DNA from: Methanospirillum lacunae
Lineage (GTDB): Archaea; Halobacteriota; Methanomicrobia; Methanomicrobiales; Methanospirillaceae
DNA: 64,000 nt
Assembly: GCF_003173355.1 (NCBI RefSeq)
Contig: NZ_QGMY01000002.1
Coordinates: 1 to 64,000, forward strand
Reading direction: 5' to 3'
In this document: one piece after another, positions 6,370 through 52,668 of the stretch
How the letters are laid out: each line of letters begins with the position of its first letter
Numbering within the stretch: position 1 is the stretch's first letter
Program-made: the position numbers and the translations under genes
The notes under the pieces: model-generated
What the model was told of the DNA's origin: nothing
The model's database searches: none
What the model saw: only the letters and a program-made list of their open reading frames with translations

Positions 6370-6433
6370 AATATCCTTTCCGTCCGGTTCGCAAAGCCTA
6401 TTGCTGACTTTGACATATTAAAAGGTAATTTGT

Positions 6434-6640: not shown

Positions 6641-6767
6641 AGTAATTGGGGATGAAAGGTCATTAAAAATATTCAGGATGTGGAGCAAAAAGCATCAGGA
6701 TCTTCTGGATAGATCATGCACCCGGGTGTTTCTTATTTCTACTGGAACCCATGAAGAAGTGTATTAG
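6633..6767 (+). pseudogene. RelE-like toxin with internal deletion (44 codons)
   Basis: The frame starts with ATG overlapping the antitoxin stop. Its first part (FRMWSKKHQDLLDR) looks like the N-terminal helix of RelE-like toxins (F.r...KKHPDL..r). Its end (CTRVFLISTGTHEEVY) matches the C-terminal strand motif GTHDEVY of the same family. The roughly 35-45 residues that should lie between are absent, and the frame is kept across the join. I infer an internal in-frame deletion that killed the toxin and left the antitoxin intact. Confidence 0.5.
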
Positions 6768-6817
6768 TTCTTTTAAAACCTCCTTTCTCCGTAGGTAATG
6801 ATAAAAATTAGGATATT

Positions 6818-8712: not shown

Positions 8713-9020
8713 TTGCCGACTTCTTACAAGAAATCAAAAACCTTGGTGTCGATATCGCCATGATCGTGCTATTCGGCTCCCAATCTGATGGATCAGCAAC
8801 GAACGAGAGTGATATTGATCTCGCTCTCATTTCTCCATCATTCGAGGGTATTACCTCACTTGAGCGACGAAAACGGGTAAAGTCTGCATTATTTCACATC
8901 ATCGACCGGTATCACATCCAGGTAGACCTCATCCTCCTGACCCTGACAGAGTATGAGACTGAACACTCCCTCCGGATGTCTTTCATCAGACAAGGAACAG
9001 CCATTTCAATCCCTGCATAA
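8688..9020 (+). CDS. Minimal nucleotidyltransferase, partner of a dead HEPN gene
   Basis: The 110-residue protein has the MNT signature FGSQSDGSATNESDIDLAL, with Gly-Ser at residues 30-31 and Asp42/Asp44. Its ATG lies inside the last codons of the frameshifted HEPN relic. This fits a former HEPN-MNT module in which only the transferase survives. Another MNT gene follows 12 bases later. Confidence 0.85.
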   Translation: MDSQIETLIADFLQEIKNLGVDIAMIVLFGSQSDGSATNESDIDLALISPSFEGITSLERRKRVKSALFHIIDRYHIQVDLILLTLTEYETEHSLRMSFIRQGTAISIPA

Positions 9021-9032
9021 ACGGAGTGTACA

Positions 9033-9386
9033 ATGAATCAGACCTTTTCCACTATCCCTCAATCCCTCCCTTCTATCATACAAGAAGCAATCAACAGGTT
9101 TACTGAGAAAATCCAGGCCCTATTTCCCGGAAAAATTACTCATATCATCTTATTTGGATCCTATGCCCGGGGAGATTATCATAAAGACTCCGATGTTGAT
9201 CTTCTTGTTCTGACAAATGATGATTCCTGGGAACTGAAAAAAAGCATAATGGATGCTGGATTTTATTTTTATCCAGAGATTGGAGTGATGATTTCGGCAA
9301 AAGTGATGACCGAGGAACAATATCAGAAGCGATCCGGTTTTTTGTTCATTCAAGAAGTTACACGTGAGGGGATACCAGTTGTCTGA
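9033..9386 (+). CDS. Minimal nucleotidyltransferase of an MNT-HEPN pair
   Basis: The 117-residue protein carries FGSYARGDYHKDSDVDLLVL, with Gly-Ser at residues 42-43 and the Asp54/Asp56 metal pair. The HEPN gene starts inside its final codons (23-base overlap), so the two are probably translationally coupled. It resembles the MNT half of Pfam HEPN/NTP_transf_2 modules rather than the MntA/HepT type. Confidence 0.87.
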   Translation: MNQTFSTIPQSLPSIIQEAINRFTEKIQALFPGKITHIILFGSYARGDYHKDSDVDLLVLTNDDSWELKKSIMDAGFYFYPEIGVMISAKVMTEEQYQKRSGFLFIQEVTREGIPVV

Positions 9387-9768
9387 TTCGAATGAGGGAA
9401 AAATTCTCTTTCAAAAAGCGTATGAACGCCTTTCAGTCGCTGAAGAACTTCATCAGAATGGTCATTATGAGGATGCAGTATCCCGGAGTTATTATGCCAT
9501 GTATTATGCAGCAAAGGCATTGCTTTCAACAAAGGGAATTATTACAAAAACACATCGCGGATTAATCGCACAGATCAGCGATCAATATGTGAAGTCAGGA
9601 CTTCTGGATTATGAAACCTGGTCTACACTGGCTCACACAGAACCATTACGTGAATCTGCAGATTATGGCAGTGGGGAAGAGATCACCGAAATAATATCTA
9701 AAAATGTTCTTATTGATAGCAGACATTTTATTGAGACCTGCGAATCCCTCTTTTCACGGAACCTCTAA
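9364..9768 (+). CDS. HEPN-domain protein of an MNT-HEPN pair
   Basis: The 134-residue helical protein has the HEPN family pattern SRSYYAMYYAAKALL in helix 2 and a late RESADYG motif. This is the non-catalytic-looking subclass without RX4-6H. The frame begins at GTG 9364, and a TTG at 9379 is an alternative. Its stop overlaps the hsdM start as TAATG, so it is co-transcribed with the methylase gene. Its role as a toxin is inferred from the family and the partner. Confidence 0.82.
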   Translation: MRGYQLSDSNEGKILFQKAYERLSVAEELHQNGHYEDAVSRSYYAMYYAAKALLSTKGIITKTHRGLIAQISDQYVKSGLLDYETWSTLAHTEPLRESADYGSGEEITEIISKNVLIDSRHFIETCESLFSRNL

Positions 9769-11228
9769 TGGCAAACGAATCAGCAACTATTGTACAGCGA
9801 CTCTGGAATTACTGTAATGTCCTCCGGGATGACGGGGTTTCGTATGGTGATTATGTAGAACAACTCACCTACCTTGTCTTCCTGAAGATGGCAGATGAGC
9901 AGACACAACCTCCTTTCAACAAACCATCAACCATCCCTGTCGGGCTGGACTGGGAAAGTCTGGTCGAAAAAGATGGAGATGAACTCGAAGTTCACTATCG
10001 GCATATCCTCGAATCTCTAGGAAAAATGCAAGGTATGCTCGGGGTCATCTTCCGGAAATCCCAGAATAGGATCAACGATCCTGCAAAACTCAAACGACTC
10101 ATCTCTCTTATCCATGATGAAAACTGGATCAGCATGGATATCGATATTAAAGGGGATATTTACGAAGGTTTGCTCCAGAAGAATGCAGAAGATACCAAGT
10201 CCGGTGCCGGGCAGTACTTCACCCCGAGAGCCCTCATCAGGGCGATGGTTGAGGTCACCAATATCCAGCCAGGAATGACGATCTGCGACCCTGCCTGCGG
10301 AACCGGGGGTTTTCTCCTTGCAGCCCAGGAGTATCTCCTAAGGGAATTCAACCTCAACAAAGAGCAGATGAAACAGCTCAAATCAGAAATATTCAGGGGA
10401 TACGATATTGTAGATAATGTCGCCCGACTCTGTGCCATGAATCTGTTTCTTCACGGGATTGGAGGTGATGAAAGTCCAATCACGGTCGCTGATGCCCTGG
10501 CTGCAGACCCGGGAGATCGATATGATATCGTCCTCACCAATCCTCCCTTTGGAAAGAAGAGTAGTATCACCATCGTAAATGATGAAGGGAAGGCTGATAA
10601 AGAAGGGCTCACCATTGAACGGGGAGATTTCTGGGCAACCACCTCGAACAAACAGCTCAATTTCCTTCAGCATGTCAGGACGATTCTCACGATTAATGGA
10701 AAGTGTGCGATCGTTGTGCCTGATAACGTCCTCTTCGAAGGAGGAGCCGGGGAGATTGTGCGAAAAAAACTTCTCCATGAATGCGACCTTCATACGATTC
10801 TCCGGCTCCCTACCGGTATCTTTTATGCTCAAGGGGTTAAGGCAAACGTCCTCTTCTTTGAGAAGAAACAGGCGTCAGAGACTCCCTGGACAGAAAAAGT
10901 CTGGTTCTATGACCTCCGGACCAATATGCACTTCACCCTGAAGACGAATCCTCTCAAGTATGCAGATCTTGAGGATTTTATCAGATGTTATCACCCGGAA
11001 AAAAGGCATCACCGGGAAGAATCAGAACGGTTTAAATCGGTTACGTATGAGGAAATCCTGGGCCGGGACAAGGTAAGCCTTGACATCTTCTGGCTCCGGG
11101 ATGAGAGCCTGGAAGATGCGGATAATCTACCGGAGCCGGATATTATCGCAGCGGAGATTGTGGATAACCTTGAAGCAGCATTGGAACAGTTCAGGGAAGT
11201 ATTGGACGGGCTCGGAGAGAGTCAGTAA
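9768..11228 (+). CDS. hsdM: Type I restriction enzyme, M (adenine methylase) subunit
   Basis: The 486-residue protein is a type I N6-adenine methyltransferase. An N-terminal helical domain is followed by the SAM-binding motif I DPACGTGGFL near residue 175 and the catalytic NPPF near 257-260. The QYFTPR segment before motif I is typical of HsdM. With HsdS it protects host DNA, and with HsdR it restricts foreign DNA. Its ATG overlaps the HEPN stop. The subunit order R-S-M, with toxin-antitoxin genes in both gaps, is unusual but all three frames are intact. Confidence 0.95.
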   Translation: MANESATIVQRLWNYCNVLRDDGVSYGDYVEQLTYLVFLKMADEQTQPPFNKPSTIPVGLDWESLVEKDGDELEVHYRHILESLGKMQGMLGVIFRKSQNRINDPAKLKRLISLIHDENWISMDIDIKGDIYEGLLQKNAEDTKSGAGQYFTPRALIRAMVEVTNIQPGMTICDPACGTGGFLLAAQEYLLREFNLNKEQMKQLKSEIFRGYDIVDNVARLCAMNLFLHGIGGDESPITVADALAADPGDRYDIVLTNPPFGKKSSITIVNDEGKADKEGLTIERGDFWATTSNKQLNFLQHVRTILTINGKCAIVVPDNVLFEGGAGEIVRKKLLHECDLHTILRLPTGIFYAQGVKANVLFFEKKQASETPWTEKVWFYDLRTNMHFTLKTNPLKYADLEDFIRCYHPEKRHHREESERFKSVTYEEILGRDKVSLDIFWLRDESLEDADNLPEPDIIAAEIVDNLEAALEQFREVLDGLGESQ

Positions 11229-11311: not shown

Positions 11312-11608
11312 TTAACCAATCTCCCTTTTCACTCCCTTCCTTAACCCCTCGGTCCTGGGTTTTAGAACATCCCCGGGATTTGAGACCAAGTATACATTCT
11401 GCTCATTCTTTGTCCCGTTTTTTCCAAATGTTTCCCAGGGACCGTACTGGGTCACGTCCTCATGAAATAACATGATCTTCCCGGGATCATCCCGTTTTCC
11501 ATAATTCCAGTAAAAAATACGATCCATGGTGCATAGTTTTGATCTAGAGAGGGTGAGTTCGGCTTGGGAGAATGATAACGGGGAGGTGATTACCGAACTC
11601 ACTCCCAC
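11312..11608 (-). pseudogene. Decayed copy of a secreted beta-domain (duplicate of 19059-20096 gene)
   Basis: Bases 11357-11511 align without gaps over 155 bases to 19749-19903, inside the secreted protein at 19059-20096. Both code for NYGK..DPGKI.LFHED..QYGPW.TFGKNGTKNEQNVY on the minus strand. Identity is high by eye, but the copy here lacks a signal peptide, loses conserved residues (W to L, G to E) and runs into unrelated sequence on both sides. Its N-terminal codons overlap the end of the GH26-like gene. It is best read as a gene fragment. Confidence 0.65.
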
Positions 11609-13473
11609 GATTCAGGAATTTCACCTTCAACCTGATTTTCATCTGTTGACGCAAACATCTTCTGAAGTCTTACTACTCCGAAATATTGATGTTGCGGCCA
11701 GGTGAGGGCATACACAACCTTCCATTGCTGATACCCGTTCTTTTTAAGAGTAATGGTATGTCTCCCCGAGGGCACCAGGTATGGTATCGCCGAGGTGATC
11801 GTACGCCCTATCTTATCCCGGTCATCGAGCCAGATATCTGCCCCTCCTGGGAGAGAACCGATTGAGATATAACTCTTTTTCCCAATCGTTGGCGGGATGG
11901 TGTAGGTATATGTACATGACCTGACCTGCGTACCATCTGATATCGTCAGTGTGATAGGATATGTTCCGGAATTCTGGTAATGATGGGTAATATTCTGTCG
12001 GTAATACTCAGGTTTCTGATCCCCGTCTACATCCCAACTCCATGAGATAATTCCCGGACCAGTACTCGTATCTGTGCATACCACGGTCATGTTACTTTCG
12101 CTGATATCGGCACTAAAATTCGCAGAGAGAACGAGTGATGATGGTCCAATAAAATAGGATTCGGACACGGCATCCGGATACAACTCATTCATCATATGGG
12201 TATGATCTGATGCAGAATACATGGAACCTGGCTGGGTTGTGCTTTTGCCATGATTCTCCCAATTAGCATCAGGAAACATGAAATTTTTTGTCACAAGTTG
12301 CTGATTTACATTATTTTCCCCTTTAACCACGTTAAACCAGATAATTCCTTTGACATTCGGATATTTTTTCAGGTTATTCTCATTATACAGGTATTTGACC
12401 TGGTTATTTTTCAGAGATAACTCGTCTGCAGGTATTCCATCCCCATCGGCACTCGTCTCCATGAAGATCATCGGGTGTTTGCGGTCTCTGGCATAATAGT
12501 TATAGAAATCAGAGAGATCATCCAGGGTTTTTGGTCCATCATTCCAGGGATACCATGTCATTCCAACCCAGTCAACGTAATCCTCACTCAACTGGTTTCC
12601 TGAATCATCCGTCCCGGGCCAGTAATAGATTCTATCACCTTTCGTCCTGGCAACATTGCCTGCCCATACCATCTGCACCGATGGATTGGCATTAGCATGC
12701 ACTATCTGATAAGCATCCCTGAACATCTGTCTCCAGGCCCGTTTGTTTGCGTTGTCAGTAAGGTCATTTTTCCCTGGATTTACAATATCCTGGGTATTAT
12801 ACTCAAGTCCGAAGCATATGAGGACAGTGGCGGGTTTCCCCTGAGAATCTGCGTATTTTTGACTGAGTGCATCACATCTTTGGGCAATCTCTTTTATTAT
12901 GCTATTACCATCCATATTATGGCTGTTTTTCGCTGAAATATCCAGGACTCCGTTTTTTTGCAGAGCCCAGGGGTAGAGGACAAGTACAGGAATGCCGCCT
13001 TGTTGCAGAACTTTTTCAGCCCAGACATCAGGGGGAGGGGACTCGGTATACTTAATTTTGCCATAATCGTTATCAGGGTAATAATACAGGTTAAAATATC
13101 GGGAAAAGAGTAACTGCTTCTTTCCTGCTCCATTCTTTATTGATTCAATCCCGGATCTGAAGGAATCGATTCCGGTGTCTATACTTTTCAGCATTTCGGA
13201 GTAATTATCAGATTTAATCTCTCCATATTGCTGAGGATGGTCAAGGATTTGGGTTTCATAGGGATTATCGCTTGCACTCTTGTAGTAATTGAGGCACATG
13301 TTATTGTTTGCCCCCTGGTTTCCTCCCAGATATGCCCCTATATAACATCCAATCTCATCCAGTAATCCTTCTTTCACTGTCGGTATATGATATCCGGCTC
13401 CAGAAACATCCTGAAATAAGATCGCGACGCCAAAGAGAAGTATGATTATCAGAAATTTATGTGACATGACCAT
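11599..13473 (-). CDS. Secreted GH26-like glycosidase with PKD and PEGA domains
   Basis: The 624-residue protein starts with a clear signal peptide (hydrophobic residues 7-20, cleavage near VSGA). Residues about 40-400 resemble a (beta/alpha)8 glycosidase of the GH26 type. CFGLEYN (Glu224) is a candidate acid/base, WYPW follows, and IFMET (Glu339) is a candidate nucleophile. A PKD domain follows at about 450-525 (WSWDVDGDQ). A PEGA domain covers about 540-610 (LPGGADIWLDD...KKNGYQQW). The protein should act outside the cell, perhaps on polysaccharide or envelope glycans. The GH26 call is by motif spacing only, and the substrate is unknown. Confidence 0.72.
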   Translation of the reverse strand: MVMSHKFLIIILLFGVAILFQDVSGAGYHIPTVKEGLLDEIGCYIGAYLGGNQGANNNMCLNYYKSASDNPYETQILDHPQQYGEIKSDNYSEMLKSIDTGIDSFRSGIESIKNGAGKKQLLFSRYFNLYYYPDNDYGKIKYTESPPPDVWAEKVLQQGGIPVLVLYPWALQKNGVLDISAKNSHNMDGNSIIKEIAQRCDALSQKYADSQGKPATVLICFGLEYNTQDIVNPGKNDLTDNANKRAWRQMFRDAYQIVHANANPSVQMVWAGNVARTKGDRIYYWPGTDDSGNQLSEDYVDWVGMTWYPWNDGPKTLDDLSDFYNYYARDRKHPMIFMETSADGDGIPADELSLKNNQVKYLYNENNLKKYPNVKGIIWFNVVKGENNVNQQLVTKNFMFPDANWENHGKSTTQPGSMYSASDHTHMMNELYPDAVSESYFIGPSSLVLSANFSADISESNMTVVCTDTSTGPGIISWSWDVDGDQKPEYYRQNITHHYQNSGTYPITLTISDGTQVRSCTYTYTIPPTIGKKSYISIGSLPGGADIWLDDRDKIGRTITSAIPYLVPSGRHTITLKKNGYQQWKVVYALTWPQHQYFGVVRLQKMFASTDENQVEGEIPESWE

Positions 13474-36650: not shown

Positions 36651-39599
36651 TTAGTACCCTCCAAATGGTTTTTTATACGCAGCCTCAAGTTCGCTTACCG
36701 GTACAGATAGGATCTGCTTCTTTCCTGAAATCTGGAGGTTCTTCCCGCTTACCCGTCCGATAAGGACGGCATCAGGACCCATCGTCCGTTCAAATGGACG
36801 TTTATTATCAGGTGCTATTGTGACGACAAACCGTCCAAGCGTCTCTGAAAAGAGAAGGAGATCTGATCTTCCATCACCGGGGATGGTAATATCCATTCCA
36901 AGCCGACCTGCGATTGCCACCTTTGCAAGTGCAACTGCCAGACCTCCATGAGTGACAGGGAAAGCCGAAGCAACCAGATCATGCAGAATTGCGTGTGTCA
37001 GTTTTTCATATCGTGCTTTCACTGCCGGAATTTCAATATGGGGCACCGTTCCGGCAGCACTATTTGCACCACATATCTGGACAAAGTACTCTGATCCGCC
37101 GAGTTCTTCCCTTGTTTCTCCAATGAGATAGACCAGGTCACCTTCAATCTTGGCATCCAGTGAGACTGCCTTTGTTACATCAGGATGAACACCGATCGAA
37201 GAGATCAGCAGGGTTGGAGGGACTGAAACTCTGACCCTGTTGTTATCTGCGTCAAATCCGGAGAAATCATTGAACATGCTGTCCTTTCCTGAGATGAACG
37301 GGGTCATAAACCCGGTTGCTCCATCATAGCATCCCCGTACAGCTGCTTTGAGCTGGTCCAGGCGTTCAGGCTCATCTGACGAGCACCAGCAGAAGTTGTC
37401 AAGAATAGCGATTGATTCAAGGGGGACACCGATTGCAATAAGACCACGAATGGCTGTATCAATGCAGGCTATTGCCATTCGATAGGAATCGATCTCTGAG
37501 TACGAAGGGAAGAGACTCTGGGATAATCCAACTCCTTTTTTAGAGGAAGCAACAACTTTTGTCAGCGTAGCCACTCCCTGTACTCTGCCAATTCCCTGAA
37601 CTGGTCCTAGTACATGTCCGCCCTGCACAGTGTGATCATACTGAATAGATATGAACTCCTTTGAGCAGATGTTCTTTCGATGAAGCATCGTTTTCAGTGT
37701 ATCACCAAGATTTTCAGGGCATCCGGGAACAGGTTCGCTTGCTTCAGGAGATGAGGATGATGTTTTAAGATGCTTTACAGGGAGCCCGTCATGAAGGAAC
37801 GAGAGTTCGATATCCATGACCGTGGTTCCGTTGAACTCAACCACACAGCGTCCAGTATCTGTAAATGTCCCGATTACCGTGCCTTCAACCTCTCTGCGAC
37901 CAAGAAGATCCATGAGTTCATCGATTTTTTCAGGAGGTACTGCAAGGGTCATCCGCTCCTGTGATTCAGAGATCCAGATCTCCCATGGTGCCATTCCCGG
38001 GTATTTCAAAGGAACTTTATCAAGCACAACGTGACAACCATTGCACTCCTTTGCCATCTCTGCAACCGAACATGAGATCCCTCCTGCTCCATTGTCGGTA
38101 ATACTGGTATAGAGGCCCTTATCCCTGGCTTCTTTTACGATAACGTCTGATACCTTTTTTTGGGTGATTGGATCTCCTATCTGGACGGCAGTTACCGGAC
38201 TTGCCGGATCCAATGCTTCAGATGAGAAGGTGGCCCCGTGGATTCCGTCTTTTCCAACTCTGCCCCCGATCACAACGATACGATCACCGGGTCTGGCCTG
38301 TTTCTCATACAGATTCCTGTCTGCGTTTTTACGGGGCATGACTCCGACGGTTCCGGCAAAAACCAGGGGTTTTCCACAGTACCGGTCATCAAACCAGACA
38401 AATCCCTGTGGAGTTGGAATTCCAGAACAGTTCCCTCCAACTCCAACTCCGGCTACGACTCCATCAAGGATACGTCGAGGCGTGAGAATCGGATTTGACT
38501 GGTCTTTTCCACGAAAGAGAACGGGGTTCGTATCAGGATCACCGACACAAAATCCGTAGATGTTGATACAGGGTTTTGCTCCAAGTCCAAAACCGATAGT
38601 GTCCCGGTTTACTCCAACGATACCGGTGAGGGCACCACCGAACGGATCAAGAGCTGATGGTGAGTTGTGTGTCTCAACCTTATGGGTAACGAGATACTCA
38701 TCGTCAAAGATGATACCTCCTGAATTGTCTGAAAATACGCTCAGGCAGATATCTTTATCCCCTTTTTCTGCCCGGATTTTATTGGTCGCTGCCTGGATGA
38801 ATGTTTTATAGAGACCTTTCGGGACATCCTCGTCCATTGCTGAAGCAAAGATTGTGTGTTTGCAATGTTCGCTCCAGGTCTGGGCAAGTGATTCAATCTC
38901 AACATCAGTTGGGATTCTCCCGATTGCCTTGAAATAGTCTCTGATTGCATGAAGCTGTGCAAGGTCAAGGGCGAGCGGGCCTCTTCTCTGGCCTGTGACT
39001 GGATCTAAAATTCCTTCTTTTCCAATCTGTATGAGTTCCTGCTCCTCAAGACTGAGATCAACAGGTTCAGCAGTTGGAAGTTCATGTAGTTCAACAAACG
39101 GTACTACACGATCCATACCGCTGGTTCCATATTCCTGTCGTGTTTTTACGTGAACCCGGTTGACGAGCGGGTTTGCAAGGGTTGAGGTTAGCGTATTTAA
39201 CACATCGGGAGTGAGTTTCCCACAGACAAAGTACAGATGCGATGTATAGACTGCTTCTCCAGGCTCAAATTTTCGATTGGTAAAATCTTCTATGGTCTGT
39301 CTGGCAGTTGTTCCAACATTATCTGTTACACCAGGAAGGAATCCTACCTCAATGGCTGTATCAAAATATGCCTGAGTGGCCTCGTCCACCGTGAACTTCT
39401 GTACCACCGGGTTACTCAGTTGCAGACCAATCTCTCTGAGTTCATCCTGAGTGAAATCTTTGGAGACAGTGGAGATGGTATAAATATCAACGAGATGGAG
39501 TTCTTCGATTGGGATTCCAAGCGAACGAATCCGGTCTGTTCTGACTTTAAGGCGGGGATCAGCCTTATAGCGGATCTCAATCCGGTGGACATATGCCAT
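36651..39599 (-). CDS. purL: FGAM synthase PurL with fused PurS-like N-terminus
   Basis: The 982-residue protein is much longer than small PurL (about 720). Its first 170 residues resemble two PurS-type halves (YVHRIEIRYKADPRL...ISTVSKDF and a second unit with YFVCGKLT...RVHVKTRQEYG). The PurL core follows, with AQTWSEHCKHT, DDEYLVTHKVETHNSPSALDPFGGA, an ATP-binding FGAM-type repeat and a second half with SGKDSM. The glutaminase domain is absent and is supplied by the adjacent purQ. The fusion removes the need for a separate purS. Start MAYVHRIEI at 39599 fits the first PurS strand. Confidence 0.93.
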   Translation of the reverse strand: MAYVHRIEIRYKADPRLKVRTDRIRSLGIPIEELHLVDIYTISTVSKDFTQDELREIGLQLSNPVVQKFTVDEATQAYFDTAIEVGFLPGVTDNVGTTARQTIEDFTNRKFEPGEAVYTSHLYFVCGKLTPDVLNTLTSTLANPLVNRVHVKTRQEYGTSGMDRVVPFVELHELPTAEPVDLSLEEQELIQIGKEGILDPVTGQRRGPLALDLAQLHAIRDYFKAIGRIPTDVEIESLAQTWSEHCKHTIFASAMDEDVPKGLYKTFIQAATNKIRAEKGDKDICLSVFSDNSGGIIFDDEYLVTHKVETHNSPSALDPFGGALTGIVGVNRDTIGFGLGAKPCINIYGFCVGDPDTNPVLFRGKDQSNPILTPRRILDGVVAGVGVGGNCSGIPTPQGFVWFDDRYCGKPLVFAGTVGVMPRKNADRNLYEKQARPGDRIVVIGGRVGKDGIHGATFSSEALDPASPVTAVQIGDPITQKKVSDVIVKEARDKGLYTSITDNGAGGISCSVAEMAKECNGCHVVLDKVPLKYPGMAPWEIWISESQERMTLAVPPEKIDELMDLLGRREVEGTVIGTFTDTGRCVVEFNGTTVMDIELSFLHDGLPVKHLKTSSSSPEASEPVPGCPENLGDTLKTMLHRKNICSKEFISIQYDHTVQGGHVLGPVQGIGRVQGVATLTKVVASSKKGVGLSQSLFPSYSEIDSYRMAIACIDTAIRGLIAIGVPLESIAILDNFCWCSSDEPERLDQLKAAVRGCYDGATGFMTPFISGKDSMFNDFSGFDADNNRVRVSVPPTLLISSIGVHPDVTKAVSLDAKIEGDLVYLIGETREELGGSEYFVQICGANSAAGTVPHIEIPAVKARYEKLTHAILHDLVASAFPVTHGGLAVALAKVAIAGRLGMDITIPGDGRSDLLLFSETLGRFVVTIAPDNKRPFERTMGPDAVLIGRVSGKNLQISGKKQILSVPVSELEAAYKKPFGGY

Positions 39600-39789: not shown

Positions 39790-39812
39790 TATTATTTATA
39801 TATTTATATTTC
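39790..39812 (+). promoter_or_regulatory. TATA-box region for the aromatic mini-protein gene
   Basis: An A/T stretch with TTATTTATATATTTATAT lies about 80-100 bases before the ATG at 39894. It is the best TATA-box candidate nearby, with room for a leader that contains the hairpin at 39848-39864. Confidence 0.4.
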
Positions 39813-39847
39813 CAAGGTTTGTTTTTTTCTGGAATGACCAACTAATC

Positions 39848-39864
39848 GGTTGTTAGCAACAACC
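39848..39864 (+). promoter_or_regulatory. Perfect short inverted repeat in the leader
   Basis: GGTTGTT-AGC-AACAACC forms a 7-base perfect stem with a 3-base loop. It lies 30 bases upstream of the ATG of the aromatic mini-protein. It could be an RNA hairpin in the leader or a protein-binding site. There is no T-run after it, so it is not a typical terminator. Confidence 0.45.
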
Positions 39865-39893
39865 TTTATCATTGTCTATAATGATTAGGAATT

Positions 39894-40103
39894 ATGGGAA
39901 CGAAAATTTTTGTTCTAGGAGTACTTGTTTTAGTTGCACTTGCTGGTGTATCTATTAGTACTCCGGTTGTTGCGGATGATGGGTATTGTTACTATTATTG
40001 CTATGATAATGGTTATTGGTGGAATTATTACTGGGATTATCTCAATTATTACTGGAACAATTACTGGTATAACTACTGGTACTATTATTGGTATGGTTGG
40101 TAA
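39894..40103 (+). CDS. Tiny secreted Tyr/Trp/Asn-rich protein
   Basis: The 69-residue protein has a classic signal peptide (MGTKIFVLGVLVLVALAGVS, cleavage near VVADD). The mature part of about 40 residues consists almost only of Tyr, Trp, Asn and a few Asp/Gly, with two Cys near its start (YCYYYCYD) and repeats of the YWNxYW kind. Such a composition is rare. The signal peptide, the upstream TATA-like element, a leader hairpin and a T-run 15 bases after the stop all argue that the gene is real. I recognise no family. A surface, adhesive or electron-conducting role is only speculation. Confidence 0.62.
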   Translation: MGTKIFVLGVLVLVALAGVSISTPVVADDGYCYYYCYDNGYWWNYYWDYLNYYWNNYWYNYWYYYWYGW

Positions 40104-40117
40104 CAATATCCATCACA

Positions 40118-40126
40118 TTTTTTTTT
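40118..40126 (+). terminator. T-run terminator after the aromatic mini-protein gene
   Basis: Nine consecutive T residues begin 15 bases after the stop codon. Oligo-T runs on the coding strand act as intrinsic terminators in archaea. No hairpin precedes it, as is usual for archaeal terminators. Confidence 0.5.
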
Positions 40127-40524
40127 ATTAATACATTCTCGAATCCATGATGTTTCTATTCTGAATAAAGAATAATTATCATTCGTTCTCGAACTAGTCA
40201 ATCTGTATAACATCAACACATCTATGGTAGTTGAGTAAAACCGTAAGCATCCTTCTCATTGTGATAACACAATTCCTGTAGATGATAATGTAATCCTCTC
40301 TCTGGATCACCATCTATTCCTTATAATTAACAGAATCGCAGCGATGAACCAATATTACGCATTTTTGGTGAAGTAAACAGCAATACCGGGAAAATTCTGG
40401 ATAATATCATTACACTAAACAACGAGTCGGCAGATGTTACATAGCCCCTCTTTTATCATTATCGCGGTTGAAGAGATTATTACTCGCAGATAATTTTCCA
40501 GACAAAGCCGGGAGAGAGATTATT
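40127..40524. other. Intergenic region before ppk2
   Basis: No intact gene is seen. A startless frame at about 40334-40444 (LRIFGEVNSNTGKILDNI) looks mildly coding and may be a relic. A ribosome-binding site (GGGAGAG) for ppk2 lies at about 40510-40517. Confidence 0.35.
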
Positions 40525-41439
40525 ATGGAATTGAAAGGACCAAAAGTCAAGGATTACATAGCGAAATTTATTGTTGAACCTGGGAAACAGGTACGTCTTA
40601 AAGATTTTAAGACCGGATGGGCTGAAAACGAACAAATGAAGAAACTTGGAGAGGATAAGTCCAAGGATCTCCTCGTGGAAATGCTTGAAAAGGACCGGAG
40701 TGCTCTGGCAGCAGTTCAGGATCTTCTCTGGTCATCCCGAACTCATGCAGTCCTGATAATTCTTCAGGGAATGGATACAGCAGGAAAAGATGGAACAATC
40801 AGACATGTTATGTCAGGTGTAAACCCACAAGGGTGTTCAGTTCATGGGTTTAAGGTTCCAAGTACACAGGAGCATAATCATAATTTTCTCTGGCGGTATT
40901 CGAATGTTCTCCCGGAACGTGGAGAGATCGGTATCTTTAACCGGTCGTATTATGAGGATGTCCTGGTAACCAGAGTTCATCCTAATATTATCTCCGGTTT
41001 TCCAAAAGATATCGGACCTGATGCTGATGGATTCTGGAAAGGAAGATATTATGATATCAACGCGTTTGAGGAGCATCTTATCAGAAACGGAACACTCATT
41101 CTAAAATTCTTCCTCCATATCTCAAAAGATGAACAGAAACGCAGGCTTCTTGACCGGCTTGAGCATAAAGAAAAGTACTGGAAGTTTTCGGTAGCAGATC
41201 TTACTGAGCGACAGTTCTGGGATAATTACATAAAAGTATACGAGAAAATGCTTGAAGCTACTTCTACCGATATAGCTCCATGGTTTGTCATTCCCGGAGA
41301 CTATAAATGGGTTGCGCGGACTGCAGTTGCCGAAGCAGTTGTTACAGCAATTAAAGGGTTAAATCTGTCATATCCGTCGGTATCAGACGATGAGATCAAA
41401 CGTCTTATGGAGGCAAAGAAGAAACTCCAGGCAGAATAA
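40525..41439 (+). CDS. ppk2: Polyphosphate kinase 2 (PPK2 family)
   Basis: The ATG at 40525 is chosen over an upstream TTG because a GGGAG sequence precedes it and the family starts here. The 304-residue protein has the PPK2 core: Walker A GMDTAGKDG, the lid segment PSTQEHNHNFLWR and the Walker B/lid pair EIGIFNRSYYEDVLVTRVHP. PPK2 enzymes move phosphate between polyphosphate and nucleotides, mostly making NTP from NDP. The single-domain length fits class I. It stands alone, followed by a small basic-protein gene. Confidence 0.93.
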   Translation: MELKGPKVKDYIAKFIVEPGKQVRLKDFKTGWAENEQMKKLGEDKSKDLLVEMLEKDRSALAAVQDLLWSSRTHAVLIILQGMDTAGKDGTIRHVMSGVNPQGCSVHGFKVPSTQEHNHNFLWRYSNVLPERGEIGIFNRSYYEDVLVTRVHPNIISGFPKDIGPDADGFWKGRYYDINAFEEHLIRNGTLILKFFLHISKDEQKRRLLDRLEHKEKYWKFSVADLTERQFWDNYIKVYEKMLEATSTDIAPWFVIPGDYKWVARTAVAEAVVTAIKGLNLSYPSVSDDEIKRLMEAKKKLQAE

Positions 41440-43881: not shown

Positions 43882-46800
43882 TTGAGGAATCTATTTACAT
43901 TCAGGAAAGAGTGGACTGAAAAAAAACCATCTGGTGAACATGTTGACAGAGGCCCGCTTCGGGATGAACTCTTCAGTGGGGATCAACTGGAGCAGCATGC
44001 AAGAGATATTGCAGGATGCTTTCGGATTGATACCAGAAAAGGAGAGGATCGCCTTCTTCCACGTCTTGCTGATAACGAGCAGGTTCTGTTAAAGACGCAC
44101 AAACTGCTCAATACAGTTCTGGAAGAGAATTCACCTGTTTCTCCTGCAGGTGAATGGCTCCTTGATAACTTCTACCTTGTTGAGGAACAGATCAGAACCG
44201 CTCGTCTGCATCTTCCTGAAGAATATAGTATAGAACTTCCTCATCTTGCAAACGGACCACTGGAAGGATATCCCAGGGTCTATCATATTGCACGAGAACT
44301 CATAGCCCATAGTGACGGGCGGATAGATACTGAAAACCTGTTTGCTTTTATTAACGCGTATCAGAAGATTACTCCTCTCAAACTCGGTGAGTTATGGGCA
44401 ATTCCTATCATGTTCAGACTCGCATTGATCGAGAATCTGCGCAGAGTTGCTGATATAATCTCTGAAAACAGGTCTGATCGGGATTCAGCCAACTACTGGG
44501 TGGATCGTATGACCAGAATGGCACGAAAGGATCCAAAAAGCCTCATTCTTGTCATTGCAGATATGGCCCGGTCGGATCCACCCCTGACAAGTGCTTTTGT
44601 TGCCGAAATGTCACGTCACCTGCAGGGAAGTTCAGGTCCTCTCTTATTTGCTCTTTCCTGGATAGAACAGCGGTTATCTGAAAAAAACCAGACTTTGGAG
44701 CAGATGATTACTGCAGAGATCCAGGCTCAGGCAGCTGATCAGGTCTCTTTTGGTAACAGTATAAGCAGCCTTCGCCTTCTTGATACCAGTGACTGGCGTT
44801 CTTTTGTAGAACGGCTGAGTATTGTTGAACGTACTCTACGCAGTGATCCTGCAGATGAATATCCAGAAATGGACTTTGAGACCCGGGACCGGTATCGCCA
44901 TGTTATTGAGGAGATTGCGAGAAATGACAGGGTATCAGAGGATCTGGTAGCACAAATTGCGGTAGAACTTGCATATCAGGCCAGAACGATACAGGGCAAA
45001 AAAGAACGGGAGTCCCATCTGGGATATTATCTGATAGATGATGGGAGGGAAAGACTGGAAGAATCACTCCTGTATCTGCCTTCTGGTATAGACCAGATCA
45101 AAAGAGCTGTTTTTGTCCACGCTTTTCCCCTCTATATCAGTGGGATTGTAACCATCACCCTTCTGGTTCTTTATTTCGCGTTTACCCAATTCAACTCAGT
45201 TACCTGGTTTATCACGCTTCTCATTCTGATACTGCTTTTATTTCCGATCAGTCAGAGCGTCATGAGAGTGATGAACTGGTTCTGTACCCTGGTCTTTGTG
45301 CCGGTCTCTCTTCCTAAAATGGACTATTCAGAGGCAATCCCGAACGATAGAAGAACAGTTGTTGTTATTCCAACAGTCCTTTCAGGATTTTCAGATATCT
45401 CCAAGCTTCTTGATTCACTTGAGATCAGATTTCTCGCGAATAAGGAGAAAAATATCTACTTTGCTCTGCTCACTGATCTCAGAAATGCTCCTGCAGCACA
45501 GATGCCTGAAGATGAAGAGCTTGTGTCCCTGCTTGGTTGTGGAATAAAAAATCTGAATGAGAAATACCACAAAGAAAACCCGGACACGTTTTTTCTCATG
45601 CACCGGAGCCGTACCTGGAATCCGAGTGAAAGGATATTCATGGGGTACGAACGGAAACGAGGAATACTCGAAGCCTTCAGTATCCTTCTGTCTGATCCCG
45701 GCAAAAGACCGTTCTCAAATGTTGTTGGCAATCTGGAAGCACTTACTCATATCACCTATGTGATAACGTTAGATACCGATACAGATCTTCCAAGAAATAG
45801 TGCACGAACGCTTATTGGCACAATTGCACATCCCCTGAACAGAGCACAGATTGATCAAAATACCCGGGTGATCAAAAAAGGGTATGGAATTCTTCAGCCA
45901 CGTGTTGCAATCTCACTCACGAAATCAGGGATTTCCCGGTTTGTATCGCTCTTCGGAGGAGAACTTGGGATAGATCCCTATACCCGTGTCGTTTCGGATG
46001 TGTACCAGGATGCATTCCATGAAGGATCATTTATTGGAAAAGGGATCTATGATCTTGAAACATTCTCTCTGACAGTGAAGGGTCGGTTTCCTGAAAACCT
46101 CATCTTAAGCCATGATCTTCTGGAAGGCTGCTATGCCCGGACTGGTCTTGTCAGTGATGTTGAAATCTTTGAAGAATACCCCTTAAGGTATCTGGTAGAT
46201 ATCATCCGTCGACACCGGTGGATCAGAGGTGACTGGCAGATTCTCCCCTGGATCTTTTCATCTGTTCCTGATAGTTCATCTAAAAAACAGAAGAACCCCC
46301 TTTCTCTTCTCTCGCGATGGAAGATCTTTGATAATCTGATACGGAGTCTTACAACTCCGGTTACCTTTCTCCTGTTTCTTCTATCATGGATAATTCTTTT
46401 AGATCCACTCTTCTGGACTGGTTTTATCATCTCGCTTCTCTTGATTCCCCCAATCATCATTATATTGTATAAAATCGTTAGAAAGCCGGGAGAGCATACC
46501 TGGAGGATGCACCTCTATGATATGGGTCACGATATCCGGAGTATGATAGCAGTCCCGCTGCTCATCCTCGTTTTTCTCCCCTTTGAAGCATACATCTCTC
46601 TTGACGCTATTATCCGCTCATGCTGGAGGATGAAGTTCTCACATCGTAACCTGCTTGAATGGACCACTCACCAGGAAGCAGGACGAATGGGTGTCTCTGA
46701 TGTTTCAGGTTCGTACCGTATCATGTGGCCTGCACCGGTTATCGGTGCCGGATTGCTCATACTTACCGTGATACTTCCCGCATCTGTCTCAGTGTTATGT

Positions 46801-49800
46801 ATTCCCTTTGCCTGTGCATGGATGCTCTCCCCTGCTATCGCCTGGTGGATAAGTCAACCGTTCATGTCTCAAACTCCCACTCTTTCTCCAGAACAGAACA
46901 GGTATCTGAGAAGGGTTGCACGCAAAACATGGCGGTTTTTTGAGACCTTTGTCACCGCTGAAGACCATCATCTCCCCCCTGATAATTATCAGGAACAACC
47001 GGTTGAGGCTGTAGCTCACCGGACCTCTCCAACAGATATCGGCCTCTCCCTTCTCGCAAATCTTACTGCCTACGACTTTGGCTACATATCCGCTGATGAG
47101 TATGTGAATCGTACTCATGGCACCCTGACAACAATGGGGAGACTGAAGAGATTCAGGGGTCATTTCTACAACTGGTATGACACGATAACGTTAGAGCCCC
47201 TGCTTCCCAGGTACATCTCCACGGTTGATAGCGGCAACCTTGTTGGAGATCTGCTGGTGTTACGGCAGGGACTCTTTGAACTCTCTCATGAACCGGTCAT
47301 TTCAATGAAATTTGGTGACGGACTATCTGATGTACTTCATCTCCTCACCGAAGCTCTGAAAGAAGCTGAAGAGAGTATGGGAGTAGTTCCGGTCCCTGTT
47401 CTATCAAAAATTGCGGATCTGAAGGAGTCTGTATCCGCTATTCAGGAAACGGTTCCCTGGATCATCAGTTCCCTCTCTGATTTGAATGAGATAGGATCAG
47501 ATCTTCTGGCTGAACTCAGTTCACATCCTGATGAAGAAGTCAGGTGGTGGGCTGATGCAACCTGGCGCCAGATAAAGAGTCATGAAACTGCTGTACTATC
47601 TCATATCTCATGGGCGTTCACCGGAGAACATCCTGATACGCTCTGGGATGAGATTCCTGTAGAGGTTTTGCCCGCTCTCTCCCTCTTCCTAAAAAAATAT
47701 GAGTCACTAAATGACCACATTCCAACATTCAGGGAAATCGCTGAGATCAGAGAGGTTTTCCTGAGTGATCTTGCTCCATTATTGGAGTGGCTTGCAGCAT
47801 CTAAAGATCATGCCAGTACGCCAGGTGCCGGGTACCAATGGCTTTCCCGCACTCTGGAAGAGATGCAAATCTCAAGTAAACGAGCCGATGATCTCCTTTT
47901 GATGGTATCGTGTCTTGCAGATGATTGTGAAACATACTCACATATTGAGTATGGATTTTTGTACGATAACACCAGTAAACTTCTTGCCATCGGGTATAAT
48001 GCGACAGATCTCAGACGCGACGCCAGTTTTTATGATCTCCTGGCATCTGAAGCACGACTTGCCAGTTTTATCGGAATAGCCAGAGGAGACCTTCCCCAGG
48101 AGCACTGGTTTGCGTTGGGTCGTCTCCTGACAACCACCGGAAATGGGAGATCTACGCTCATCTCCTGGAGTGGTTCGATGTTTGAATACCTGATGCCACT
48201 GCTTCTGATGCCGAATTATGAGAATACTCTCCTGGATCTGACCTATCGCACGGTGGTTACCAGGCAGATAGAATATGGCAGGCAGAGAAATGTTCCCTGG
48301 GGGATATCAGAATCAGGTTATAATATCATTGATACAAGCCAGAACTACCAGTACCGTGCATTCGGAGTCCCGGGGCTTGGGTTCAAGCGTGGTCTTTCTG
48401 AAGATCTGGTTATCGCTCCCTATGCGAGTGTAATGGGTCTGATGGTTCATCCGTCTTTAACTTACATGAATCTGAAGGAGATGGATTCACTTGGATATTC
48501 AGGGGCATATGGTTTTTATGAGGCCGTTGATTTTACCCCTTCCCGGATTCCTCCAGGCCAGAATCATGCTATTGTGCGATCGTTCATGGTACATCACCAG
48601 GGAATGGCTCTGCTCTCACTTGCCTATGTCCTTCTCAATCGCCCGATGCAGAGGCGATTTGAGTCTGACCCATCCCTTCAGGCAACACTGATGCTCCTTC
48701 AGGAAAAGATGCCACGGGTTACTCCCTTCTATCCCCACACCGGTGATGTGCAGGGAGTTCATAAAAAGAATGGTGACGCCGAATCATTGGTGCGTACCTT
48801 CCATACCGCACATACACCACGGCCTGAAGTGCACCTTCTTTCAAATGGACATTACCATGTGATGGTAAATAATAGCGGATCAGGATATAGCAGGTGGAAT
48901 GATCTTGCAGTAACCAGATGGCGGGAAGATCCAACCGCAGACACCTCGGGAACTTTCTGTTATATCAGGGATCTTGAGAGTGGTGATTTCTGGTCAAATG
49001 GCTATCAGCCCACAAAAAAGAATCCTGAAACCTTTCAAACAACGTTTAAACAGGCTCGTGCTGAATTCAGGAGACGTGACCAGGAATTTGATACCCGTAC
49101 AGAAATCATCGTTTCTCCTGAAGATGATGTAGAACTTAGAAGAATACGGGTAACAAACCGGTCCTGGAAACGAAAGACCCTGGAGTTTACCAGTTATGCT
49201 GAGGTAGTCCTGGCTCCCCAGACCTCTGACGAATCACATCCGGCCTTCAGTAATCTTTTTGTTCAGACCGAACTTCTTGCGGAGAAGAATGCAATCATAG
49301 CCACGAGAAGGCCACGTTCAGAGGATGAAAAGCCGCCATGGATGCTCCATCTCATGACTGTTCATGGCACGGTGATGAGAAAGATCTCATTTGAGACAGT
49401 AAGGACCAATTTCATCGGAAGAACAAATTCTCTCTCAAATCCTGCCGCTATGACTGACTCATCAGCCCTTTCAAACTCAGCAGGTTCTGTGCTTGACCCG
49501 GTGGTTGCGATCAGATGTACCATCATACTGGATCCACAGGAGACTGCGGGGGTGAATATCTTCACCGGAGTCAGTGAGAGCAGGGACAAATCGGTTGCCC
49601 TTGTTGACAAGTATTATGACAGTTATATCGCTGATCGGGTCTCCGAGCTTGCCTGGACACATGCACAGGTTGTACTCAAACAACTCAATGCTACAGAACG
49701 TGATGCCCGGCTGTTTGGGAGTCTTGCGTCATCGGTTATCTATGCACATCCCTCGCGTAGGGCGAGCCAGAAGATTCTGGAAAAGAACTCCCGTGGCCAG

Positions 49801-52668
49801 TCTGGTCTGTGGGGATATGGAATCTCCGGAGATATTCCCATAGTTCTGGTGAGAATTCAACACATGAGTGGGATTGGTCTGATCAAAGAGATGGTTCAGG
49901 CCCATGAATACTGGCGAATAAAAGGCCTGATGGTTGATCTGGTGATCTGGAACGAGGAACAGTCAGGATACAGGCAGGAACTGCATGATGAGATCATGCG
50001 TCAGATTCCCCAGGGTTCTGATCATCCTCTGGTAAATCAGAAAGGAGGCATCTTTATCAGACATATGGAGCAGATGTCAGATGAGGATCGTATCCTGATT
50101 CAGACCGTGGCACGGGCGATAGTATCTGACCGGAGAGGAAATCTCGCAATGCAACTCGAACGGCCGGGCTGGAATGAGACTCCTATGCCCAAATTAATCC
50201 CTGCCAGGAGTTCGATTTATGAAAATGATCCGGGAATCAACATTTCTTCTGAAGACCTCCTCTATTTTAACGGTACTGGAGGGTTTTCGCCTGATGGAAA
50301 AGAGTACATCATCTTCACCGGAAAAGGAAGGGTAACTCCGGCTCCCTGGGTAAACATACTGGCAAATGAGAATTTTGGGACCGTGATATCAGAGAGTGGG
50401 AGTGCCTTTACCTGGAGTGAGAATGCCCATGAGTTCAGACTTACTCCCTGGACAAACGATCCGGTCTCTGATCTCTCTGGCGAGGCCCTGTACATCAGGG
50501 ATGAAGAGACTGGCATATTCTGGTCTCCCACTCCCTTACCGGTCAGAGGATCTAACAATTACAAAACCCGGCATGGATTTGGCTATTCAGTCTTTGAATA
50601 CTTAGGAAACGGAATTCAGACCACACTGACGGTCTTTGTGTCACCTGATAGTCCTGTTAAAATCCTCTCTCTTCGGGTAAAGAATCAGTCAGGACAATCC
50701 CGTGTCCTCTCAGTAACCTGCTATGTCGAATGGGTTTTAGGAGAACTCAGATCTCGATCTCTGCCATATGTGATATCAGAGATTGATCCGGTTACTGGAG
50801 CGATCTTTGCTAAGAATCCATATAATTCTGAATTTCCCGGACGTGTTGCCTTTCTTGACTCAAATATTCCGAGCAGAACTATTACCGGCGATCGGTATGA
50901 GTTCATCGGGCGAAACCGCTCTATGGAAAAACCTGCAGCAATGGAGCAGGAACACCTCTCCAACAAAGTTGGAGCAGGTCTTGATCCGTGTGCAGCTCTC
51001 CAGGTCTTATGTGAACTGGTTGATGGTGAGGAACGTGAGATCATCTTTACCCTTGGTGTCGGTTGTGATGGAGAAGAAGCACGAAATCTTGTTCTCCGCA
51101 GTCGCGGAGTTGGAGCAGCACGTGCATCACTAAAAGCGGTACATGAGTACTGGGCATCGACACTCGGAGTGGTGAATATTGCAACACCTGATCCATCCGT
51201 GGACCTGCTTTTCAACGGCTGGCTCCTCTATCAGACGATTGTCTCACGTCTCTGGGCACGTTCCGGGTTTTATCAGTCAGGAGGAGCGTTTGGATTTCGG
51301 GATCAACTGCAGGACGTGATGGCCCTCATCAACACAAAACCAGACCTTGCAAGAAAACAGATTCTCCTCTGTGCCGGGCATCAGTTTACTGAAGGTGATG
51401 TGCAGCATTGGTGGCATCCCCCTGTTGGTCGCGGAGTGAGGACTCATTGTTCTGATGATTATCTATGGCTCCCGTATGTAACCTGCAGGTATGTAACCGG
51501 TACCCGTGATTTTGGGATTCTTGATGAGGTGGCTCCTTTTCTTGAAGGGAGAAAGGTGCTCCCTGACGAGGACTCATATTATGATCTCCCTGAAATCTCC
51601 GGATCAGCAGATACGCTTTATGAGCATTGTGTCCGTGCCATCAGGTCAGGCCTGATGGTTGGTGTTCATGGCCTACCATTGATGGGAACCGGGGACTGGA
51701 ACGATGGCATGAATCTTGTCGGGGCAGGAGGGCAGGGAGAGAGTGTATGGCTCGGATTTTTCCTTTACGATCTGCTTACGCGGTTTGGCAGAATATCCAC
51801 GCTTCACAACGATCCTGCATTTGCAGAGTATTGCCTGGTACATGCTAATCTTTTGAGGGAGAACCTTGAAAAAAACGGGTGGGACGGGGAATGGTACCGC
51901 CGTGCCTATTTCGATTCAGGGCAGCCACTCGGATCTTCCCTCAACCAGGAATGCAGAATAGATTCTATTGCCCAGAGTTGGGCTGTTCTATCCGGTGCTG
52001 GATCAAAGGAGAGAACCGTGGCTGCCATGAAAGCAGTAGGCACCCATCTCATCAATAACGATGATGGGCTCGTTTCTCTCTTCACTCCTCCGTTTGATTC
52101 ATCGCTCATGAATCCCGGGTACATTAAAGGATATGTGCCGGGCGTTAGAGAAAACGGCGGGCATTATTCACATGCAGCCATCTGGGTAGCAATGGCCTTT
52201 GCTACACTCAAAGATCACGAACAGGCCTGGAAACTGGTATCGTTTATCAGCCCGGTACATCATTGCAAAACTCATGATGATGTTCAAAAATACCGGGTTG
52301 AACCGTATGTTATTACATCAGATATCTATACTGCCCCTCCCTACTCGGGCCGTGGAGGCTGGACATGGTATTCGGGATCTGCTGGCTGGATGTACACACT
52401 GATTCTTGAATCTCTGCTCGGAGTTGAGGTACAAGGCGATCAAATGAGATTCAATCCATGTATTCCTGAAATCTGGAGATCATACCGGATTTATTTGAGA
52501 TACCAGTCTTCCAGGTATCATATCTCTGTCATAAAGCCCGGTCCGGGATCAGCAGTACTATCGGTGAGTGTTGAAGGGAAAAATCAGTCTGATAAAACGG
52601 TGCATCTCGTTGATGATGGAGGGGATCGTCAGGTTGTGATAGAACTAGGGGAGACATCCCTGTTGTGA
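43882..52668 (+). CDS. ndvB: Cyclic beta-1,2-glucan synthase-like protein (GT84-GH144-GH94)
   Basis: One frame of 2,928 residues starts at a TTG with AAAAGG in front. An N-terminal soluble part (1-405) leads into membrane helices (about 410-470). The glycosyltransferase 84 region has DTDTDLP near 631 and RRHRWIRGDWQ near 780. More membrane helices lie at about 816-992. A glycoamylase-like (GH144-type) domain covers about 1010-1590. The C-terminal half is GH94 phosphorylase-like: two beta-sandwiches, the catalytic helical barrel with SGGAFGFRDQLQDV and the acid motif GTGDWNDGMN near 2605. Bacterial NdvB/ChvB uses UDP-glucose to make cyclic glucan, the GH94 part controlling chain length. The protein is full length and its reading frame is unbroken. 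No glucan export gene (ndvA) is nearby. Confidence 0.92.
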   Translation: MRNLFTFRKEWTEKKPSGEHVDRGPLRDELFSGDQLEQHARDIAGCFRIDTRKGEDRLLPRLADNEQVLLKTHKLLNTVLEENSPVSPAGEWLLDNFYLVEEQIRTARLHLPEEYSIELPHLANGPLEGYPRVYHIARELIAHSDGRIDTENLFAFINAYQKITPLKLGELWAIPIMFRLALIENLRRVADIISENRSDRDSANYWVDRMTRMARKDPKSLILVIADMARSDPPLTSAFVAEMSRHLQGSSGPLLFALSWIEQRLSEKNQTLEQMITAEIQAQAADQVSFGNSISSLRLLDTSDWRSFVERLSIVERTLRSDPADEYPEMDFETRDRYRHVIEEIARNDRVSEDLVAQIAVELAYQARTIQGKKERESHLGYYLIDDGRERLEESLLYLPSGIDQIKRAVFVHAFPLYISGIVTITLLVLYFAFTQFNSVTWFITLLILILLLFPISQSVMRVMNWFCTLVFVPVSLPKMDYSEAIPNDRRTVVVIPTVLSGFSDISKLLDSLEIRFLANKEKNIYFALLTDLRNAPAAQMPEDEELVSLLGCGIKNLNEKYHKENPDTFFLMHRSRTWNPSERIFMGYERKRGILEAFSILLSDPGKRPFSNVVGNLEALTHITYVITLDTDTDLPRNSARTLIGTIAHPLNRAQIDQNTRVIKKGYGILQPRVAISLTKSGISRFVSLFGGELGIDPYTRVVSDVYQDAFHEGSFIGKGIYDLETFSLTVKGRFPENLILSHDLLEGCYARTGLVSDVEIFEEYPLRYLVDIIRRHRWIRGDWQILPWIFSSVPDSSSKKQKNPLSLLSRWKIFDNLIRSLTTPVTFLLFLLSWIILLDPLFWTGFIISLLLIPPIIIILYKIVRKPGEHTWRMHLYDMGHDIRSMIAVPLLILVFLPFEAYISLDAIIRSCWRMKFSHRNLLEWTTHQEAGRMGVSDVSGSYRIMWPAPVIGAGLLILTVILPASVSVLCIPFACAWMLSPAIAWWISQPFMSQTPTLSPEQNRYLRRVARKTWRFFETFVTAEDHHLPPDNYQEQPVEAVAHRTSPTDIGLSLLANLTAYDFGYISADEYVNRTHGTLTTMGRLKRFRGHFYNWYDTITLEPLLPRYISTVDSGNLVGDLLVLRQGLFELSHEPVISMKFGDGLSDVLHLLTEALKEAEESMGVVPVPVLSKIADLKESVSAIQETVPWIISSLSDLNEIGSDLLAELSSHPDEEVRWWADATWRQIKSHETAVLSHISWAFTGEHPDTLWDEIPVEVLPALSLFLKKYESLNDHIPTFREIAEIREVFLSDLAPLLEWLAASKDHASTPGAGYQWLSRTLEEMQISSKRADDLLLMVSCLADDCETYSHIEYGFLYDNTSKLLAIGYNATDLRRDASFYDLLASEARLASFIGIARGDLPQEHWFALGRLLTTTGNGRSTLISWSGSMFEYLMPLLLMPNYENTLLDLTYRTVVTRQIEYGRQRNVPWGISESGYNIIDTSQNYQYRAFGVPGLGFKRGLSEDLVIAPYASVMGLMVHPSLTYMNLKEMDSLGYSGAYGFYEAVDFTPSRIPPGQNHAIVRSFMVHHQGMALLSLAYVLLNRPMQRRFESDPSLQATLMLLQEKMPRVTPFYPHTGDVQGVHKKNGDAESLVRTFHTAHTPRPEVHLLSNGHYHVMVNNSGSGYSRWNDLAVTRWREDPTADTSGTFCYIRDLESGDFWSNGYQPTKKNPETFQTTFKQARAEFRRRDQEFDTRTEIIVSPEDDVELRRIRVTNRSWKRKTLEFTSYAEVVLAPQTSDESHPAFSNLFVQTELLAEKNAIIATRRPRSEDEKPPWMLHLMTVHGTVMRKISFETVRTNFIGRTNSLSNPAAMTDSSALSNSAGSVLDPVVAIRCTIILDPQETAGVNIFTGVSESRDKSVALVDKYYDSYIADRVSELAWTHAQVVLKQLNATERDARLFGSLASSVIYAHPSRRASQKILEKNSRGQSGLWGYGISGDIPIVLVRIQHMSGIGLIKEMVQAHEYWRIKGLMVDLVIWNEEQSGYRQELHDEIMRQIPQGSDHPLVNQKGGIFIRHMEQMSDEDRILIQTVARAIVSDRRGNLAMQLERPGWNETPMPKLIPARSSIYENDPGINISSEDLLYFNGTGGFSPDGKEYIIFTGKGRVTPAPWVNILANENFGTVISESGSAFTWSENAHEFRLTPWTNDPVSDLSGEALYIRDEETGIFWSPTPLPVRGSNNYKTRHGFGYSVFEYLGNGIQTTLTVFVSPDSPVKILSLRVKNQSGQSRVLSVTCYVEWVLGELRSRSLPYVISEIDPVTGAIFAKNPYNSEFPGRVAFLDSNIPSRTITGDRYEFIGRNRSMEKPAAMEQEHLSNKVGAGLDPCAALQVLCELVDGEEREIIFTLGVGCDGEEARNLVLRSRGVGAARASLKAVHEYWASTLGVVNIATPDPSVDLLFNGWLLYQTIVSRLWARSGFYQSGGAFGFRDQLQDVMALINTKPDLARKQILLCAGHQFTEGDVQHWWHPPVGRGVRTHCSDDYLWLPYVTCRYVTGTRDFGILDEVAPFLEGRKVLPDEDSYYDLPEISGSADTLYEHCVRAIRSGLMVGVHGLPLMGTGDWNDGMNLVGAGGQGESVWLGFFLYDLLTRFGRISTLHNDPAFAEYCLVHANLLRENLEKNGWDGEWYRRAYFDSGQPLGSSLNQECRIDSIAQSWAVLSGAGSKERTVAAMKAVGTHLINNDDGLVSLFTPPFDSSLMNPGYIKGYVPGVRENGGHYSHAAIWVAMAFATLKDHEQAWKLVSFISPVHHCKTHDDVQKYRVEPYVITSDIYTAPPYSGRGGWTWYSGSAGWMYTLILESLLGVEVQGDQMRFNPCIPEIWRSYRIYLRYQSSRYHISVIKPGPGSAVLSVSVEGKNQSDKTVHLVDDGGDRQVVIELGETSLL

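Follow-up and report, generated by a model that had tools for sequence, protein, structure and literature searches.

A clade-restricted Methanospirillum gene for a small, probably secreted protein rich in tyrosine, tryptophan and asparagine

Why would a methanogen keep a gene for a 69-residue protein that, beyond its signal peptide, is composed largely of tyrosine, tryptophan and asparagine? Such a gene lies in the window, the whole 64,000-nucleotide stretch of Methanospirillum lacunae DNA analysed here. An earlier note had read from this DNA a signal peptide followed by an aromatic and amide chain of about 40 residues with the motif CYYYC. Translation of the open reading frame at 39894-40103 (+ strand, 69 codons) yields MGTKIFVLGVLVLVALAGVSISTPVVA followed by DDGYCYYYCYDNGYWWNYYWDYLNYYWNNYWYNYWYYYWYGW, which matches that description exactly and sets the mature part at 42 residues.

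The gene and its encoded chain

The features of the gene are as follows.

39894-40103, + strand: gene for the Y/W/N-rich, probably secreted 69-residue protein, stop codon included; two orthologues and frame-specific purifying selection
39894-39974, + strand: signal peptide, residues 1-27, as read from the sequence and the orthologue alignment
39975-40100, + strand: residues 28-69, the mature aromatic chain; 38/41 and 30/41 positions match the two orthologues
39987-40001, + strand: residues 32-36, the cysteine pair CYYYC, which reads CYYC and CNYC in the orthologues
40017-40100, + strand: residues 42-69, the conserved tail WWNYYWDYLNYYWNNYWYNYWYYYWYGW containing YW[NY]x tetrads, from the alignment and the tryptophan periodicity

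The signal reads as Sec type, with a signal-peptidase-I-like site and no hydrophobic helix afterwards. Cleavage would fall after VVA, and in the alignment both orthologues share an A-x-A-like end to the signal peptide. The resulting chain would start at Asp28 and hold 18 Y, 8 W, 6 N, 4 D, 3 G, 2 C and 1 L (Y+W 62%, Y+W+N 76%). Lysine, arginine, histidine and glutamate are absent, the calculated pI is 4.05 and the mass is 6080 Da. The bias is extreme for this DNA: when the window is translated in all six frames, the stop-free 40-mer richest in Y and W lies in the mini-protein and has 26/40, versus 9 for the runner-up.

To which family does this protein belong? Searches of Pfam, NCBIfam, PHROGs and PDB chains gave no match better than E 0.13, in agreement with the earlier impression that no known family has this make-up. 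Rfam gave no match, and a description of the mini-protein was not found in the literature, open-licence papers only. Judged by its sequence, the mini-protein defines a new and unusual orphan family restricted to one clade, to which a function can be assigned only tentatively. Small secreted orphan proteins in general are common, which tempers this novelty.

Orthologues, selection and descent

Is the reading frame a selected gene or an accident of repetitive DNA? Two of the 11 other genomes of the genus carry full-length orthologues, at G007:C1:313739-313945 (+ strand) and G002:C263:6323-6529 (- strand), with 76% and 68% identity, respectively, to the window protein over the aligned part. Both keep the signal peptide, both cysteines and the aromatic tail. 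The earlier note had staked its reading on conservation of the signal peptide and tail in relatives, and the reading survived this test in two congeneric species. The signal peptide, cysteine pair, YW[NY]x tail and palindromic upstream element are all found in the window's genome (G000), G007 and G002. The cysteines are invariant in the three sequences, with a spacing of 3 in the window versus 2 in the orthologues. The signal peptide has diverged (11-14 of 27-28 residues identical) with its character kept, and the tail, residues 42-69, is identical across species at 22-27 of 28 positions.

The selection analysis rests on these three sequences. The mature part has a dN of 0.04-0.12 and, in frame 1, a dS of 0.9 or, in some pairs, saturated. 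When all frames were compared, only frame 1 combined dN << dS with a whole-gene open frame. Third positions account for 16/20 differences between the window and G007 (binomial p 2.5e-5) and for 16/26 between G007 and G002 (p 0.003). An excess was not found for the mature window and G002 pair (7/19, p 0.46), so these two sequences by themselves do not settle the matter. Within the gene, lengths differ by whole codons, and the start and stop are conserved.

These data bear on the possibility that function does not lie at the protein level, the open frame arising only as a side effect of some conserved RNA or DNA repeat. The TAY-TGG DNA is repetitive and its other frames are also long, as such an explanation would have it. 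We find it scarcely credible, because the other frames are not open over the whole gene, dN << dS appears chiefly in frame 1, the ends and codon-wise spacing are preserved, and an Rfam match is absent. Orthologues with the same architecture, together with dN << dS in frame 1, argue for a selected protein rather than a chance open frame. We conclude from these comparisons that the frame is a real gene, and its product is probably expressed and secreted. Furthermore, as the tail is conserved and dN is far below dS while the signal peptide drifts, selection targets the aromatic chain itself. The aromatic pattern therefore appears to matter: the mature part evolves far more slowly than the signal peptide, with dN << dS in frame 1 only.

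How widely is the gene distributed? No further member turned up among 232 genomes of the order or in a sample of 393 genomes from the phylum. Viral contigs, searched with tblastn confirmation, gave none either, nor did phage and plasmid DNA, and in the GTDB contig set the only member was that of G002. BLAST-type low-complexity masking could miss distant analogues, and pattern and HMM scans were added to reduce this risk. Weak matches in G009, G084, G158 and G210 were rejected as chance, lying on signal peptides, in unrelated proteins or in stop-containing frames. Hits to a YWxxYW pattern, whether in viral contigs or in other genomes, were likewise rejected as short frames lacking a signal peptide or as readings unlike the gene. 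A spread over Methanomicrobiales was not borne out: among the genomes searched, the family appears confined to one Methanospirillum clade.

A PurL tree places G000, G007 and G002 in a single clade (support 99/97) together with G006, a genome of 64% completeness. A single origin there followed by vertical descent therefore suffices. The gene is absent from G001, G003, G009 and G010, which lie outside this clade and are each at least 96% complete. Because near-complete genomes of other Methanospirillum species are without the gene, the mini-protein is not a core part of the sheath.

Upstream element and genomic neighbourhood

Three further features flank the coding sequence.

39829-39893, + strand: conserved upstream region of 65 bp (promoter/operator or leader); identity among the three loci 65-75%
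39848-39864, no strand assigned: palindrome GGTTGTT-AGC-AACAACC, core TTGTT-N3-AACAA kept, directly before TTTA
40119-40127, + strand: T-run, possible archaeal terminator; T-runs also past both orthologue stops

Identity among the three loci is lower elsewhere, at 46-60% further upstream and 42-60% past the stop. Across 12 genomes of the genus, the exact extended motif TCGnTTGTTnnnAACAACCTTTA occurs with zero mismatches only before the three mini-protein genes; because the motif was derived from these loci, its occurrence there is a given, but its absence elsewhere is not. Additional sites with 2-3 mismatches were about as frequent as in the control, and a palindrome regulon was rejected.

What might the palindrome do? 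A leader hairpin had been proposed here. The inverted repeat is indeed present, and in the relatives only its core TTGTT/AACAA is kept: the left arm has G, A or T at position 2, opposite a C that stays the same. Because this outer pair is lost with no compensating change, it is simpler to read the palindrome as a protein-binding site, with 39848-39864 perhaps acting as an operator; a weak 5-bp hairpin is less likely. The TATA-like region of the earlier note was seen as AT-rich sequence at two places, 39794-39808 and 39865-39870. The latter, TTTATC, lies ~26 bp before the start codon, a distance that fits a leaderless archaeal transcript; the former would imply a leader of ~60 nt. The T-run read earlier as a terminator is also in place after the stop. 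With its own conserved upstream element and T-run, the mini-protein gene has the look of a single-gene unit.

The gene stands alone between purL (36651-39599, - strand) and a PPK2-type polyphosphate kinase gene (40525-41439, + strand). Close orthologues of this PPK2 (73-78%) are limited to the three genomes with a mini-protein gene, and other genomes have only distant PPK2, in a longer frame. In G007 the PPK2 gene is far from the mini-protein gene; a link to this neighbour was therefore rejected, and the co-occurrence likely reflects the shared clade. In G007, the mini-protein gene is ~3 kb away from purQL, on its purQ side, and close to a gene for a condensation/PapA-like acyltransferase; the G002 gene adjoins one.

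L068:10308-11651: condensation/PapA-like acyltransferase gene, G007
L069:4757-6103: condensation/PapA-like acyltransferase gene, G002
C2:700373-701707: condensation/PapA-like acyltransferase orthologue, window's genome

A link to this gene was rejected as well, since it is 660 kb distant in the window's genome and the G006 copy has no mini-protein gene upstream. A common operon partner is not evident across the three loci.

The acyltransferase gene bears on one alternative, in which the mini-protein is an adhesin or a binder of carbohydrate or aromatic surfaces on the cell, its aromatic face sticking to partner cells or minerals. An export signal and an aromatic stripe would suit such a role, Trp and Tyr are the usual sugar-stacking residues, and the acyltransferase gene is nearby in two of three genomes. 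We regard this as unlikely, given that the gene lies elsewhere in the window's genome and that the mini-protein has neither an anchor domain nor a sorting signal.

Other genes of the window are of separate interest. To the 2928-residue protein encoded at 43882-52668 (+ strand), Pfam assigns a glucoamylase-like domain together with the supersandwich and catalytic domains of GH94, the layout of bacterial cyclic beta-glucan synthases; the host here is a methanogenic archaeon. A Type I restriction-modification locus occupies 2720-11228 (+ strand), with an HsdR-like gene by Pfam and a specificity-like subunit and methylase-like gene by reading. The 297-residue frame at 89-982 (+ strand) is rich in Cys, Asp and Ser and has zero Pfam matches. 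At 11599-13473 (- strand), a probably secreted 624-residue protein carries PKD and PEGA domains, and its N-terminal part is glycoside hydrolase-like by reading, with no Pfam match.

Repeat pattern and possible function

In the window protein, the tryptophans recur with a period of 3.83 (R 0.81; shuffle p 0.004). The periodicity holds in G007 (shuffle p 0.008) and is weaker in G002 (period 3.75, p 0.065). From residue 53 onward, the only variable residues are 60, 64 and 68, each the fourth place of a YW[NY]x tetrad. The pattern fits a helix carrying one Trp stripe. A strand is also compatible, in which from residue 53 onward one face would be Trp and the opposite face mostly Tyr. AlphaFold, given the three sequences, returned low-confidence single-chain helices (mean pLDDT 59 for the precursor and 64 for the mature chain).

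What could such a chain do outside the cell? Our preferred reading, offered tentatively, is a self-assembling, disulfide-linked aromatic surface peptide that forms an envelope film, glue or fibre after export. The small protein would leave the cell by Sec-type export from its solitary, clade-private gene, and removal of the signal peptide would place a 42-residue acidic aromatic chain outside the membrane. There the Trp/Tyr tetrad repeats may pack together through side-chain stacking and hydrogen bonds between Tyr hydroxyls and Asn, and the N-terminal cysteine pair may join chains via disulfides. The assembled, insoluble film or fibre would coat, glue or seal part of the S-layer/sheath envelope. 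The low-confidence AlphaFold models, which show a single-chain helix rather than an assembly, count against this reading without deciding it.

There are precedents for such behavior. Tyr/Cys peptides, e.g. YYACAYY, form disulfide dimers, are helical by NMR and assemble into sheets (PMC6382316). The mini-protein is likewise Tyr-dominated and Cys-assisted and is expected to stack and cross-link; the designed peptides differ in being synthetic 7-mers with no Trp repeats, export signal or natural gene. The envelope of the genus is built of an amyloid sheath protein that requires DTT plus NaOH to dissolve (PMC6242892). This protein, MspA of Methanospirillum/Methanothrix, resembles the mini-protein in being secreted from a non-operon gene into an envelope of the same genus, and cysteines are proposed to be important in some MspA homologues (PMC6242892). 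By its description MspA stands apart, with ~40-60 kDa and long imperfect repeats of G/A/N/Q and V/P (PMC6242892), in contrast to a Y/W/N mature chain of 6.1 kDa.

The M. hungatei archaellum and Geobacter e-pili, both conductive filaments (PMC6469973), are also extracellular, with aromatic packing proposed to be functional. They have a pilin/archaellin fold and signal and a phenylalanine core, none of which is present in the mini-protein; by reading, it has neither a class III signal nor a retained hydrophobic N-terminal helix. Neither the sheath amyloid nor the M. hungatei archaellum protein resembles it in make-up. The CxxCH motif of multihaem cytochrome nanowires is missing too, as CYYYC has no trailing H and histidine is absent from the mature chain.

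These comparisons bear on a redox or charge-hopping role, in which a dense Tyr/Trp array would move charge, as electrons or protons, along a filament or through the sheath and aid interspecies electron exchange. The aromatic content of 62-66% would suit such a role, a path along the phenylalanine core is proposed for the conductive M. hungatei archaellum (PMC6469973), and proton and electron conduction can be coupled in Tyr peptide materials (PMC6382316, PMC7677316). Conduction cannot be demonstrated from composition alone, a haem motif, a pilin-type signal and an evident redox neighbour are all absent, and most species of the genus live without the gene. We therefore hold this role to be distinctly unlikely.

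Could the peptide instead act on competitors? A secreted, archaeocin-like antagonist or interface-active peptide would bind competitor membranes through its Trp/Tyr belts. Membrane interfaces are favoured by Trp and Tyr, and the protein is small and secreted, with a narrow distribution and its own regulatory element. The acidic chain has zero positive charge, and with no K/R/H/E and a pI of 4.05 it is by composition not a cationic membrane-lytic peptide. A shared immunity, transporter or maturation gene is not evident at the three loci, and the slow evolution of the mature part is unlike that of typical antagonistic peptides. We judge this alternative very unlikely.

The self-assembling surface peptide thus remains our preferred reading. 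A bolder form of it, which we put forward with considerable doubt, is a natural, gene-encoded peptide material: a short secreted chain of almost nothing but Tyr, Trp and Asn that builds, by stacking and disulfides, a film or fibre in the envelope of an archaeon and that may also conduct charge or be redox-active. It would be a kind of extracellular matrix protein with no known relatives. The family also points to a blind spot of proteomics. Because the mature chain is without lysine and arginine, it is predicted to give no tryptic peptides of the usual size and would be missed by standard methods. Tyrosine-rich peptides have been designed by chemists to self-assemble and conduct; if our reading is true, the mini-protein would be a natural 42-residue version. 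It would then offer a genetic and evolutionary handle on peptide materials, in a methanogen that has an amyloid sheath and often lives alongside syntrophic partners.
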